Assembly (NCBI RefSeq): GCF_000246855.1
Contig: NC_016609.1
Span: 1,736,001 to 1,800,000 of the forward strand
Direction of reading: 5' to 3'
DNA: 64,000 nucleotides
DNA from: Niastella koreensis GR20-10
GTDB taxonomy: Bacteria; Bacteroidota; Bacteroidia; Chitinophagales; Chitinophagaceae
Positions 31,254 to 48,584 of the stretch are shown one piece after another; within the stretch, counting starts at the first letter, position 1, and every line of letters begins with the position of its first letter. Position numbers and translations under genes: made by a program. The notes under the pieces were generated by a model. That model searched no databases and was not told where the DNA came from. It was given only the letters and a program-made list of their open reading frames with translations.

Positions 31254-31367
<114 letters not shown>

Positions 31368-43263: not shown

Positions 43264-45852
43264 ATGCAAAACATACGTATGGACGTTATCTCTCTGCAGA
43301 AAATAGAGGAAGAGCTTAAAAAGACGCATAAACCTGCCATTTATGAGGGATTACCATTGCCATTAAATGAACTGACGGATCGGAGCTTCGAGATTCTTCT
43401 ATATCATATTTATAGGGAACGGCTTTTGAGAAAAGACGAGGAAATTGTAACCATGTGTGATACGGTGAGCCTTATGCAGGGCGTGGGTGAACAGGGGCGG
43501 GATATTATGTTTTCGAGAAATGGAGCTATAACAGGAGTTGTTCAATGTAAAAAGTATAAGAACAATTTATCCAGCCGTGATGTGGGTGCTGAAATATTAA
43601 AGTTTGTCATGAATTATTTGAACGATGATTCATTGATTGGTGATCTGGATGACTTTACCTATTATTTCGCTGTGTCGACTGGTTTTAGTGGCGCAACTAT
43701 TGGCCATTTTAATGATTTTGGAACATATTTATGTAATGAACCGCAATTGGAACAATGGTTCAAAGAAATAGTGAAGAAATATCCAGCCAAGTTTAAAGGC
43801 TGGATATACAGCAAAAAGGGAAGTGCAGTAAAAAATGTTCTTGGTAAAATAAAAATTAGGAAAATTATTCCCCAAGACATTGAATATAAATTAAGCGAGT
43901 TTGCATATCTCTATGAGTATCTTTTTAAGATACAAAGTGTAACAGACAACTCATTAATGGAGACCATCATAAATAAGTATTTAAAGCCAATTTTGAATAA
44001 ACTCGATATACAGGATCTTGATAAGCCTGATTACACAAACCGTTTTAGGGAATACCTGACAGAAAGTTTCAACAATTATTCAACCGCTAAGACCCTTGTT
44101 TTTGGAAATCAGCAGAAAAAACTGGAAGATTTCTATTATCCATTGAAGGTGATCAAAAAGATTCTTGGTGGATCGGGAAAGTTAAAAGAGGTTTTATTAT
44201 TGGATGAATATAAAAGTGATTTCATCCCCAAGTATAAAAAAGTAATAGTGCTAGATGATGGCGGAATGGGAAAGTCGACGATTTTTAAATGGTTGTTCCT
44301 GAGTTGCATAAAAACAAACAAAGGTATTCCTGTATATATAGAATTGAGAAATCTCAATAAGGATAATGATCTTTTAGATGAAATTACGAATAAACTTAAT
44401 CCGCTTGATTTCGTTATTGAAAGAAAAGCTACCGCAAAAATATTGTCTCAAAAAGGTTTTGTTTTTTTCTTTGATGGGTATGATGAAATAAAATTTGAGA
44501 ACCGAGAATTCGTGACAAAGGACTTGCAAAATTTTATTTCTAAATGTACAAATTCTTATTTCGCTATTTCTTCAAGACCGGAAAAGGCACTTTTGGCATT
44601 TTCAGAATTTCAGGAATTTGGAATTCAAAAATTGAATAAAGAAGATGCATTTGAATTAATCAAAAAATTAGACAATTATGGGGAAAGATCATTACGTCTT
44701 ATTGAGCAAATAGAACAAAAAGGGTTGCAAGAAATGCACGAGTTTTTAAGTAACCCATTATTGGTATCGTTACTATTTAAAAAGTTTGAATTTCGAGAAT
44801 CAATACCATTTAAAAAGCAGGAATTTTTTTATGAGGTATTCGAAGCCTTATTTCAGGCACATGATCTATCAAAGGGTGGGAGTTTTATTAGGGAGAAGGA
44901 ATCTAAGTTAAGCCTATCTGAATTTTTTCAAATATTACGAGGTATTGGTTTCAGGTGTATCCAAGATGGCATTCAGTTTAACGAAGCACAATTATTGCAA
45001 ATAGTTAATATAGTAAAAAAGGAATTTGCCATATTGTTTGATTCATATTTATTTTTAAATGATTTAATAAAAGCAGTCCCGCTTTTTGTTAGAGATGGAT
45101 TGATGGTACGTTGGGCTCATAAATCTATTCAGCAATATTTTGCTGCAGAATACATTTGCAGGGACAGCAAGGAGAATCAGCAGAAAATATTAATGGCTCT
45201 GTATAAAAGTGCTCAAGCCTATTCTTATGAATCTATTCTTAGGCTTTGTTATGAGATAGATTATAAAAGCTTTCGATCGAGCATTATTTATTCGTTTTGT
45301 AAAGAGACTATAAATAACACAGAAAATGCATTCCATAATTTAAAAAAAGCTGGAAAAATTAGTAGTATAGAACTTGATATTAGAAAGGGGCTTTTGGGTA
45401 CACAAAAAATGGCTTTGATTTATGGAGCCAATAATTTAGTTGAAAAAAATAAAAAGAAGCTTTATAAAGAATGGGGTGAAGTTCAGGAAATTTATTTACC
45501 ATTTAACTATGTTGTTCTATCAAATTTAGGGATCTTTGCATTTAGTATAAAGCATCTATTATGTGTTGTGAATGATAAGTTGGTTGATTCTAGAAACCAA
45601 ATCTGGCCTGGGGATAATATTCTTGTAAACGGCTTACCAAAGGATTTTAATATGAAGCAAGGTGAGTTATTTTTACTAGATAATGACGATCCTGCCCATT
45701 TTCTAAATACCCCTAAAAATTTTAAGGTTCTAAATGAATTATTGCTGAGCTTATATATATTAATTGATGTCGAAAAAGTAAAGCAAACTTATGTCCAAAT
45801 TAACAATGAAAAAGAAAACTTTATTAATGACGATTTTATCTCCGGCTTTTAA
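43264..45852 (+). CDS. Mrr-like nuclease fused to NACHT ATPase (probable bacterial NLR-type anti-phage protein)
   Basis: 862 residues. The N-terminal PD-(D/E)XK region (about 38-150) has FEILLYHIYRE (E43), GVGEQGRDIMF (D80) and GVVQCKKYKN (Q94 and K96), the Mrr/type IV restriction pattern. The NACHT ATPase has Walker A DDGGMGKST (333-339) and Walker B FVFFFDGYDEI (D404, D407, E408), followed by winged-helix and NACHT-associated helices (SNPLLVSLLFKKF; RWAHKSIQQYFAAEYI). The last 250 residues are unclassified, the likely sensor. The gene is markedly more AT-rich than its neighbours, consistent with transfer. Bacterial NACHT proteins of this layout (bNACHT) protect against phage; nuclease activation probably kills or arrests the cell. 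Confidence 0.85.
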   Translation: MQNIRMDVISLQKIEEELKKTHKPAIYEGLPLPLNELTDRSFEILLYHIYRERLLRKDEEIVTMCDTVSLMQGVGEQGRDIMFSRNGAITGVVQCKKYKNNLSSRDVGAEILKFVMNYLNDDSLIGDLDDFTYYFAVSTGFSGATIGHFNDFGTYLCNEPQLEQWFKEIVKKYPAKFKGWIYSKKGSAVKNVLGKIKIRKIIPQDIEYKLSEFAYLYEYLFKIQSVTDNSLMETIINKYLKPILNKLDIQDLDKPDYTNRFREYLTESFNNYSTAKTLVFGNQQKKLEDFYYPLKVIKKILGGSGKLKEVLLLDEYKSDFIPKYKKVIVLDDGGMGKSTIFKWLFLSCIKTNKGIPVYIELRNLNKDNDLLDEITNKLNPLDFVIERKATAKILSQKGFVFFFDGYDEIKFENREFVTKDLQNFISKCTNSYFAISSRPEKALLAFSEFQEFGIQKLNKEDAFELIKKLDNYGERSLRLIEQIEQKGLQEMHEFLSNPLLVSLLFKKFEFRESIPFKKQEFFYEVFEALFQAHDLSKGGSFIREKESKLSLSEFFQILRGIGFRCIQDGIQFNEAQLLQIVNIVKKEFAILFDSYLFLNDLIKAVPLFVRDGLMVRWAHKSIQQYFAAEYICRDSKENQQKILMALYKSAQAYSYESILRLCYEIDYKSFRSSIIYSFCKETINNTENAFHNLKKAGKISSIELDIRKGLLGTQKMALIYGANNLVEKNKKKLYKEWGEVQEIYLPFNYVVLSNLGIFAFSIKHLLCVVNDKLVDSRNQIWPGDNILVNGLPKDFNMKQGELFLLDNDDPAHFLNTPKNFKVLNELLLSLYILIDVEKVKQTYVQINNEKENFINDDFISGF

Positions 45853-46602: not shown

Positions 46603-47214
46603 TTACTGTATCACCCTCGTAACCACTGGCGAGTAAGCCAGCAATTCACCACGGCCAATGGCAATTCCGCGGAACCAGTACCGCTTGTCGGAGGTAAGCC
46701 CTTTTATAGTATAGGAGCGCAGTGAGCTTCCTATGCTTTTCCAGATCGTATTAGGGCCGGGTGGTTCGGTTGTATATTCAAATATAAAAGCTACAGCTCC
46801 GGTAGCATTTTTAATACGGATAGTTACTTCGCCCGGTTCACCCAGGATAACCTCCAGTTTCTTAATGCTCGGTGGCGAACCTGCGGCGCCTTCTTCGGTT
46901 ATGTCGAATCCACTGCTCAATAATAAGGACCTGTCGCCTTTGCAGATCTCGGTTACATAGGCGGCTAGTTCATCTAACAGATTGTGTATAATATCCTTGT
47001 TGTTATCTTTTACAGCCACCATTTCCTTATCCCGCCCGGTGGCATGGGCAAGAGAGAGCTGATACTCAGGGATTATTTTTTTTAGTTGGGCGAGGGCTGC
47101 AGGCGGATCGGGAAAAACCGGGTTGTTTTCCATTTTATCTACCACACACCTGCTAAGGACAGCCAGTTCATTCTGGCGAACTTTCCTGCGGTTACCCAGG
47201 ATCTTGTAATTCAT
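46603..47214 (-). CDS. Fibronectin type III-like domain protein
   Basis: 203 residues, no signal peptide. The N-terminal helical part (1-115) holds LSRCVVDKMENNPVFPDPPAALAQLKKIIPEY and DIIHNLLDELAAYV; the C-terminal Fn3 domain spans about 115-203 (PGEVTIRIKNATGAVAFIFEYTT; LTSDKRYWFRGIAIGRGE). The pattern is common in Bacteroidota, usually as a stand-alone gene of unknown role. A 21-bp palindrome array begins 174 bp upstream of its start. Confidence 0.82.
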   Translation of the reverse strand: MNYKILGNRRKVRQNELAVLSRCVVDKMENNPVFPDPPAALAQLKKIIPEYQLSLAHATGRDKEMVAVKDNNKDIIHNLLDELAAYVTEICKGDRSLLLSSGFDITEEGAAGSPPSIKKLEVILGEPGEVTIRIKNATGAVAFIFEYTTEPPGPNTIWKSIGSSLRSYTIKGLTSDKRYWFRGIAIGRGELLAYSPVVTRVIQ

Positions 47215-47387
47215 ACTGCGAAGGTTTTAAGAATTAATTAATTGTGCTCGATTGCTACTATCGATCCTTTTAACCTTGCACGATTTATTTGTATCTGATA
47301 CATAATAAACCGGTTCACCGTGTATGTTTTGTTGTTATATACAAATATATGATAACTGTATACGGAATAATCTTTAATAGAAAGTAA

Positions 47388-47674
47388 TTTCTCATGTGCA
47401 AGGAATCATTTCCTACGGGAAATGACATTTTTCTCATGGGAAATTTGGTAGTTCATTAAAGAAAAAGTGTTTTTCTCATGAGAAATTGATGTTCGCACCT
47501 GGGAAAATGTTGTATTCTCATGAGAAAAAATATTTTTCGCATGAGAAAAACATAATTTCTAATGCGAAATTTTACAATTTCAATGAGAAATGACTCATTT
47601 CGTATGAGAAAAGATCAATTTCTTTTACGCGGGAACATTTTTCTCATGAGAATCGATTCATTTCTCATGAGAAA
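47388..47674. repeat. 21-bp-phased array of 14 imperfect palindromes (TTTCTCATGAGAAA type)
   Basis: Units start at 47388, 47409, 47430, 47451, 47472, 47493, 47514, 47535, 47556, 47577, 47598, 47619, 47640 and 47661: spacing is exactly 21 bp each time. The best copies (47472, 47661) are the perfect 14-bp palindrome TTTCTCATGAGAAA. Others drift but keep the two arms TTTC/GAAA; 47451 and 47619 are the weakest. A decayed unit may follow near 47682. The 7-bp linkers are not conserved. Not CRISPR: no spacer-repeat asymmetry and no cas genes. Open frames through it have no shared reading frame along the whole array. Confidence 0.95.
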
Positions 47675-47759
47675 ATATCGGTTCATTGATGAATTTTCAT
47701 CAGTAATTATAATAGCGGACCATTTATTTGCAGGAACCGCTAAAAAAGCGAAACTTTCT

Positions 47760-47793
47760 CTTGACTCTTACCTTACGTCATAGCATATATTTG
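47760..47793 (+). promoter_or_regulatory. Promoter of the MerR-type gene with over-long spacer
   Basis: CTTG (47760-47763) and TATATTTG (47786-47793, TAnnTTTG) are separated by 22 bp, longer than the usual 19-21. Between them TGAC...GTCA (47762-47780) forms a short dyad, as expected for a MerR-family operator that lies within the spacer. A GGAGG lies at 47797-47801. Confidence 0.55.
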
Positions 47794-47816
47794 TCCGGAG
47801 GTATAAAATCCAAACG

Positions 47817-48584
47817 ATGGACAACTATTCTGTAAAAAAGCTTTCGGGTCTGGCAGGTGTTAGCGTGCGCACCTTACACCTGTATGACAAAATGGGCTTA
47901 TTAAAACCTTCTGTACGTACTGCGGCCGGGTACAGGCTGTACGGCGAAAATGAACTGTTGCGTTTACAGCAGATCCTTTTTTATCGGGAACTCGATTTTC
48001 CATTGAAAGACATCCAAACCATTCTGGATGATCCTGCATTTGACCTGGTGCAGGCATTGGAAGCTCACAAAAAAGCGCTGTTGGCCCGGAAGGAAAGAAT
48101 AAACACATTGGTTGGTACCATTGAAAAAACATTGGTAACACTAAAAAACAACACTATGTTACGGGTTGAAGATTTATACGAAGGCATTCCACGCGAAAAG
48201 ATGGAAGCTTACAGAACCGAAGCCATGACAAAATGGGGTAAGCAAGCCGTTTTGGAGGTGGAAGACTCTTTGCGAAGTTTCAGTAAAGAAGAAATGGAAG
48301 CAATGAAAACAGAGTTGAATGAGTTGACGAACCGGTTGGCCGCGCTCATGAATGGCGACCTCACCAGCAGGGAAGTACAGGAATGTATTGCCCGGCGGTA
48401 CCAGATCATTCTTCGGTTAACCGGTGGAAAAATTGAAATGGGCAAACTGGAGTATTTCAGAAAACTGGGTGAACTGTATGTGGCGGACAATCGTTATACC
48501 CCTGTAAATGGACTGCCCAGCATGGAACTGGCGCTTTTTATAAAAGACGCCACTGACCATTATATTAAAACGCAGGAAGTATAA
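47817..48584 (+). CDS. MerR-family regulator with TipAS-like effector domain
   Basis: 255 residues. MerR DNA-binding part at 1-75 (YSVKKLSGLAGVSVRTLHLYDKMGLLKPSVRTAAGYRLY), a long dimerisation helix (about 80-120), and a TipAS-type ligand-binding C-terminus (about 130-250; KMEAYRTEAMTKWGKQAVLEVEDSL). TipA proteins sense thiopeptide or other multidrug ligands. The promoter directly upstream has a long spacer, so it probably regulates itself. It is divergent from the Fn3 gene, with the palindrome array between. Confidence 0.9.
   Translation: MDNYSVKKLSGLAGVSVRTLHLYDKMGLLKPSVRTAAGYRLYGENELLRLQQILFYRELDFPLKDIQTILDDPAFDLVQALEAHKKALLARKERINTLVGTIEKTLVTLKNNTMLRVEDLYEGIPREKMEAYRTEAMTKWGKQAVLEVEDSLRSFSKEEMEAMKTELNELTNRLAALMNGDLTSREVQECIARRYQIILRLTGGKIEMGKLEYFRKLGELYVADNRYTPVNGLPSMELALFIKDATDHYIKTQEV

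Follow-up and report, generated by a model that had tools for sequence, protein, structure and literature searches.

Slippage or a transposon is the usual explanation given for dispersed minisatellites in bacteria. Repeats of approximately 20 to 22 bp in helical phase, with protein bound to them side by side, are a feature of plasmid iterons and partition-site arrays, which are found at one origin or centromere beside rep or par genes. The arrays described here differ from these in being dispersed over the chromosome and built on many cores, and no rep or par gene was identified among the nine neighboring genes scanned in the window (the whole 64,000-bp stretch of DNA analyzed). The parS and Noc sites are loopless palindromes of the TTTC...GAAA kind that occur as single sites. 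The present palindromes are likewise loopless and of the TTTC...GAAA kind, but they are arranged in 21-bp arrays, those of the family to which the window array belongs (family A) have two extra central bases, and no clustering at the inferred origin was observed. CRISPR arrays combine a repeat with a variable spacer, a likeness that ends at size, as the 14-bp repeat and 7-bp spacer found here are far too short.

REPs are palindromes of 20 to 40 bp, most of which carry a GTAG or CGTC tag (PMC3733652). The present elements resemble REPs and BIMEs as short extragenic palindromes found at many places in a genome, but they are loopless palindromes of 12 to 14 bp set on a rigid grid, and the family A core, TTTCTCATGAGAAA, contains neither of the two tags. 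The nearest known kind is the BrickBuilt minisatellite/MITE of Porphyromonas gingivalis, which is dispersed and intergenic, has 19 copies in one strain, varies in unit number, and consists of 23-nt units without spacers together with a leader and tail that have inverted-repeat ends (PMC4596501). Both are dispersed tandem arrays in a Bacteroidota genome, and the present arrays are regarded as a variant of the dispersed bacterial minisatellites. They differ from BrickBuilt in their 21-bp step, the random 7-bp linker of the window array, their often palindromic cores, and the presence of several families per genome. A literature search, with subscription journals mostly outside its reach, returned no paper describing palindromes phased at 21 bp in either Niastella or Chitinophagaceae.

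Layout of the window array

The window array (47388..47674, no strand assigned) consists of 14 palindromic 14-bp units on an exact 21-bp grid, with starts at 47388 + 21k (k = 0 to 13). At least 10 matches to TTTCTCATGAGAAA were found in 11 of the 14 units. Units 5 (47472..47485) and 14 (47661..47674) are perfect palindromes that match at all 14 positions; units 3 (TTTCTCATGGGAAA, 47430..47443), 7 (47514..47527), 8 (47535..47548), and 13 (47640..47653) match at 13; units 1 (TTTCTCATGTGCAA, 47388..47401), 9 (47556..47569), and 11 (47598..47611) match at 12; and units 2 (TTTCCTACGGGAAA, 47409..47422) and 10 (47577..47590) match at 10. The three remaining units are worn, namely, unit 4 (47451..47464; 8/14), unit 6 (TCGCACCTGGGAAA, 47493..47506; 9/14), and unit 12 (47619..47632; 7/14). 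Unit 6 is an asymmetric-arm variant often seen in two of the sister arrays described below, L016 and L019.

The array was confirmed as real and far beyond chance. On the plus strand of the rest of the window, a score of at least 10 was reached at 38 of 63,687 positions and a score of at least 12 at none. The best 14-unit grid with a 21-bp step, that of the array, sums to 160, compared with 85 for the runner-up elsewhere in the window and 81 for the best grid in 20 Markov-simulated windows; periods of 19, 20, 22, and 23 bp tried at the array position gave sums of 80 or less. A scan for any period across 464 kb also singled out the window array at period 21, and one Markov simulation of those 464 kb produced zero peaks. 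The 7-bp linkers are random in sequence, with a mean pairwise identity of 0.302 against the 0.3025 expected from base composition; the corresponding value for the core is 0.69. The initial annotation, which described 14 palindromes at a strict 21 bp with nonconserved 7-bp linkers, is borne out by these grid sums and linker identities.

The array occupies 287 bp of a 602-bp divergent intergenic gap (47215 to 47816) and does not fill all of it, contrary to the earlier claim. On one side lies a gene on the minus strand for a 203-aa protein (46603..47214); a Pfam search at E 0.001 found no family for it, which leaves its earlier name, Fn3-like, without support. On the other side, the gene on the plus strand at 47817..48584 was correctly named as encoding a MerR/TipA-type regulator and has matches to PF07739 and PF13411. 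Further away, at 43264 to 45852, an 862-aa protein with matches to NACHT and an Mrr-type endonuclease just below the Pfam cutoffs is possibly an anti-phage STAND protein. The window also carries, at 31254 to 31367, a heptamer array of CGATTGC with 16.3 copies that are 100% identical.

Families of 21-bp arrays in the window's genome

The main result is that dispersed 21-bp arrays form several species-specific families, to one of which the window array belongs, as anticipated by the earlier suggestion of a repeat family of the genome. A search of the window's own genome (G000; a single contig of 9,033,684 bp) identified the family A core in at least five further arrays, and families with other cores were found alongside them. 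The family A sister arrays are located near 2,357,006 (L016), 3,112,285 (L017, a short array with two scored units), 5,473,772 (L018), 5,760,078 (L019), and 7,181,545 (L020), and a pattern match revealed three more family A units at 4,818,077. Across the window array and these five, single steps measure 21 bp in 37 of 38 cases and 20 bp in one; longer gaps measure 42, 42, 41, 41, and 62 bp, and the window array ends with one off-grid gap of 32. Many sister units are asymmetric, carrying the left arm TCGCAC instead of TTTCTC. Between L016 and L019, identity is 0.88 in the core versus 0.61 in the linker, and the identity of family A units shows no clear fall with distance along the array. Covariation of the arms, proposed earlier as a check, gave a negative result: among dyad pairs of the window array that depart from the core, complementarity is kept in 4 of 31, and neighboring family A units pair no better than shuffled ones (9.44 versus 9.57 of 14; p 0.83; 41 pairs).

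The family B core is AAATCCYRGGATTT or TTTTCC.., the family C core is TTTCAGTT..AAAC alternating with AACTGAAA, and the family D core is AAGTTNNNAACTT; further cores exist. Known loci number 7 for family A, 8 for family B, and 11 for family C. Single steps in family B are 21 bp in 19 of 19 cases (three arrays), and in family C, with 69 forward units at 11 loci, spacings below 100 bp are exactly 42 bp in 56 of 56. Family C linkers are partly conserved, and the family C array L229 contains identical 42-bp repeats. No loop is present in the family A, B, or C cores. When four base maps were compared in 19 arrays, complement symmetry was the largest in 12, comprising all five family A arrays and 7 of the 14 others, so that dyad symmetry is observed in family A and in about half of the other arrays; mirror symmetry was best in five of the remaining arrays and another map in two. 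The dyad score exceeded that of column shuffles (p < 0.05) in 11 of the 19.

Using the 80-bp flanks of the 11 family C arrays, five matches of 12 to 32 bp were found at E 0.1 and no shared ends, and a MITE with terminal repeats was rejected for this family. The lack of a conserved leader or tail and of terminal inverted repeats in these 11 arrays is a further difference from BrickBuilt. Predicted curvature was compared with shuffles for 15 arrays using two wedge tables and was clearly higher under both tables only in family B and L149; it was weak or model dependent in families A and C and absent in arrays of the relatives G005, G001, and G002. Intrinsically curved DNA as a general explanation was rejected on this basis.

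The abundance of the class was estimated by an any-period scan of 1.264 Mb, made up of the window and 60 further stretches, each of 20 kb. This gave 115 peaks, at periods of 7 bp (52), 8 bp (27), 21 or 42 bp (15), 11 bp (6), 20 bp (2), and a few others. One of the 15 period-21/42 peaks, L070, is really a 7-bp repeat, leaving 14. The L155 stretch had been placed on a known array on purpose, and when it and the window were left out, the 12 arrays in 59 grid stretches extrapolated to roughly 90 per genome. With open reading frames (ORFs) chosen by a simple length rule, 11 of the 15 period-21 peaks fall outside ORFs of at least 80 aa and 4 fall inside ORFs of 82, 87, 96, and 183 aa, none of which has a Pfam family; once array-borne ORFs were masked, 15 of 15 lie outside. 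A BrickBuilt-like element would be expected always to be intergenic. Outside ORFs, all peaks with a best period of 16 to 50 bp are at 20, 21, or 42 bp, save one at 50 bp, and peaks at periods 15, 24, 27, 36, and 51, as well as two of three at period 9, are inside ORFs. With masking (n = 15), 2 period-21 peaks lie in convergent, 10 in tandem, and 3 in divergent gaps, a placement close to that of the sampled gaps of at least 200 bp (26 convergent, 103 tandem, and 54 divergent). Repeats with an 8-bp period, arranged as a forward and then an inverted block, were also observed (L057:7550, L064:8709, L067:8645, L069:913, L075:17615, and others) and, judged by eye, could form long hairpins.

Turnover of arrays between relatives

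From one species to another, the core, the number of copies, and the position of the arrays all turn over rapidly. The initial annotation had stated that a lack of phasing in close relatives would count against its reading; the window locus does not pass this test, but the 21-bp step is kept in arrays elsewhere in the genus. In the gap that holds L020, six relatives have 26 to 64 bases between the matched flanks, and G002 and G005 carry 21-bp arrays with other cores. In the L072 gap, G004 has approximately 20 bp where G000 has a family C array, and relatives other than G004 do not match both flanks side by side. The L057 gap holds family B in G000, another core in G002, and a C-like core in G007. 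Six G000 array gaps were followed into 47 loci of relatives (174 kb), and 10 of these loci contain a 20- to 22-bp array. Four of the ten arrays occupy the exact gap with another core, one is an orthologous family A array, and the other five lie in a neighboring gap or could not be placed clearly; the ten include L330, a 20-bp repeat in which a dyad is not evident. In 400 kb sampled from five relatives, no array was found at 20 to 22 or 41 to 43 bp, and single peaks were seen at 39 and 40 bp. This sample and the tested gap loci cover partly different genomes, and for the five genomes common to both sets, our own count is 6 in 28 loci versus none in 400 kb.

Counting the two loci used as queries, family B occupies 8 loci in G000. 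At least 6 loci were found in G009 and none in the eight remaining genomes of the genus, with about 37 candidates scored per genome. A core shared by G005 and G001 is dispersed in both genomes and has one weaker match in G003, and the core of G002 is dispersed in G002 only.

Two family A arrays have orthologues in G008. Identity is 0.79 in the core and 0.83 in the linker between L018 and L181, and 0.89 in the core and 0.82 in the linker between L019 and L029. As the core is not better kept than the linker between the two species, purifying selection on the core lacks support; a contrast between core and linker is seen only in the pair L016/L019 within G000. The large length differences between orthologues amount to 21, 21, and 42 bp when neighboring gap pieces are summed, which indicates that arrays gain or lose whole units. 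The alignment of L018 with L181 is poor in its left part, where gaps are smaller. Since arrays come and go between species, none of those examined is needed at its own place. At the L018 gap (L018:4973-5007), two relatives (L182 and L183) carry a terminator-like hairpin where G000 has the array. Its arms of about 14 nt, separated by a 7-nt loop, resemble family A units, and the array may have been seeded by this hairpin.

A Niastella MAG (L115) carries the array that G008, a relative in the genus, has at L029. Outside the genus but within the family, G016 has a 21-bp array at L261:14817-15190 in which no frame is open. A pattern scan of contigs from other genomes gave 31 stretches, 17 of which show by eye a longer 21-bp tandem array; these come from Bacteroidales, Prevotellaceae, Treponema, Verrucomicrobia, a planctomycete, and others. 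Because the pattern itself demands a half-palindrome, linkers are conserved in several of the 17, and each of the 17 can be read through in one frame or more, they are no evidence for the same class. In four genomes of Bacteroidales, Prevotellaceae, and Verrucomicrobia, one 21-bp repeat is present at two or three loci per genome (L090/L102, L104/L110/L111, L085/L106, and L094/L107). The window array had no match at E 1e-5 in 50,697 phage and 72,556 plasmid records, and family C had none in the plasmid records; a phage or plasmid origin of the window array was rejected, no relative having been found in either collection. Among viral contigs, five stretches contain the family A pattern, two of them sharing identical units. 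A longer tandem repeat of 21 bp is seen in one of the five, L345, whereas similar units number two, or three at most, in the others; the family C pattern was found in none.

Possible role and origin of the arrays

The reading preferred here, with a probability of roughly 0.47, is that these are fast-turning dispersed noncoding minisatellites whose units would bind one or more putative dimeric proteins aligned on one DNA face. The geometry, dispersal, and turnover are observed, as are the random linkers and lack of coding in the window array. Twenty-one base pairs equal two turns of B-DNA. A member of the class may be defined as a run of short, often dyad-symmetric cores placed every 21 bp and separated by free linkers of about 7 bp. 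Each palindrome would bind a putative dimeric protein, and the fixed step would place successive dimers on one face of the helix and so permit their side-by-side assembly. An array occupied in this way could have an architectural or roadblock function or, alternatively, could be the substrate of an activity that copies arrays to new places. On its geometry, symmetry, and random linkers, a cooperative operator or landing pad is plausible.

Several features point in this direction. The loopless cores of families A, B, and C make single units poor RNA hairpins and natural sites for dimeric proteins, and the few compensated dyad changes, together with the pairing of neighbors no better than shuffled, fit sequence recognition rather than hairpins. 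Random linkers, a nearly indel-free two-turn step, and the scarcity of compensation likewise point to a putative sequence-specific protein acting on one helix face. Against a protein-bound array stand the core and linker identities of the orthologues (0.79/0.83 and 0.89/0.82), the 7 of 19 arrays, all outside family A, with no dyad excess over other base maps, the partly conserved linkers of family C, the many sister units with a TCGCAC arm, and the 4 of 15 period-21 peaks that fall inside ORFs without masking. One protein could hardly read all of the cores.

A serious rival, and one we consider possible, is that the arrays are nonfunctional dispersed minisatellites, with 21- or 42-bp units amplified by slippage or recombination and spread by some further route; period and palindromes would then stem from amplification and not from a bound protein. 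This would account for the species-specific families, gain or loss at orthologous gaps, length changes in whole units (21, 21, and 42 bp), equal divergence of core and linker between orthologues, identical 42-bp repeats in L229, and the absence of dyad excess in half of the non-A arrays. However, slippage alone explains neither why random linkers lie beside common palindromic cores nor why cores that are unrelated keep to one 21-bp step, and the fall of identity with distance predicted by recent duplication of neighbors is not clearly seen in family A.

A self-dispersing, leaderless array is unlikely. Here, a recombinase or other dimeric DNA-binding enzyme dedicated to the task would copy palindromic half-sites around 7-bp spacers, at 21 bp per step, and its specificity would shift between species, so that relatives would refill the same gaps with new cores in the same helical phase, in a manner likened to fast-evolving centromere repeats. 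If true, this would be a previously unrecognized kind of element.

It is also improbable that the arrays act at the RNA level, with pairs of neighboring units forming a 14-bp stem and 7-nt loop that serve as terminators or protective 3′-end hairpins. The window array does fold better as RNA than its shuffles (z −7.8; 0 of 200 shuffles as good), the two relatives with a terminator-like hairpin in place of the L018 array have arms and a loop of just these sizes, and by our own reading of the gene map L018, L019, and L020 lie between convergent genes. However, good folding is expected of any palindromic array, neighbors pair no better than shuffled (p 0.83), compensated changes are few (4/31), and hairpins do not require an exact 21-bp step; moreover, no preference for convergent gaps was found (2 convergent, 10 tandem, and 3 divergent), and the window array itself lies between gene starts. 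A known Rfam RNA was rejected, since the 12 matches found between 46500 and 48700 at E up to 1 were each below their own gathering score.

Very little weight can be given to a diverged centromere (parS) system read by the single ParB of the chromosome. The one ParB match in G000 (L344:988-2773; G000:C1 near 1,393,752) adjoins a gene read from its sequence as ParA-like, yet a scan of the 9.03 Mb with the parS/Noc consensus, TGTTTCACGTGAAACA, found no site within one mismatch, and the sole site with two mismatches sits among family C-like units. Against this system, ParB is close in sequence to solved ParB proteins and resembles an ordinary ParB, a single ParB could hardly read all cores, and the center of the family A core is 6 bp compared with 4 bp in parS. 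Moreover, mean distances to the origin, itself inferred from the GC skew of the 60 sampled stretches, window included, are 2.72 Mb for family A (7 loci), 2.12 Mb for family B (8 loci), and 2.20 Mb for family C (11 loci), compared with 2.26 Mb expected. The three families are therefore no nearer the inferred origin than chance, which makes a centromere role unlikely and leaves the earlier label "origin-like" unsupported. With no parS site within one mismatch and no clustering at the inferred origin, an origin or centromere element was rejected.

The initial annotation had also tied the array to the neighboring MerR protein. That the array is the operator of this TipA-like regulator is suggested by its adjacent, upstream position and its palindromes, but the idea is largely refuted. 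A MerR-type promoter/operator of the TipA-like gene, TTGACTCTTACCTTACGTCATAGCATATATTTG, termed a promoter on its position and conservation, lies outside the array at 47761..47793 on the plus strand and is kept directly before the gene in seven of seven relatives that have it, and the window array is absent from the locus in all seven; G003 and G008 have no match to the TipA-like protein. In addition, the core occurs in at least five other places in the window's genome, whereas the protein has a single match there. In the same gap upstream of the gene, G005 and G002 carry repeats with an 11-bp period, or one helical turn (L081 and L082).

Heptapeptide-coding repeats (21 bp being seven codons) are refuted for the window array, where each of the six frames has 2 to 9 stops and, as had been noted earlier, no single frame stays open, and are highly improbable for the class: of 20 arrays tested, 10 can be read through in one or two frames, each of these being 210 bp or shorter, and 4 of 15 unmasked period-21 peaks lie in ORFs (82, 87, 96, and 183 aa), but no frame is open in any of the 6 arrays that exceed 210 bp, the frame is lost at steps of 20 and 41 bp, and those four ORFs lack a Pfam family.

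What sets the arrays apart is that a single rigid step of two turns, with free linkers, is common to sister species whose cores are unrelated and often palindromic and that the same gaps contain different cores. Such geometry points to a putative protein, and the species-specific cores would make an arms-race-like coevolution of protein and repeat testable.
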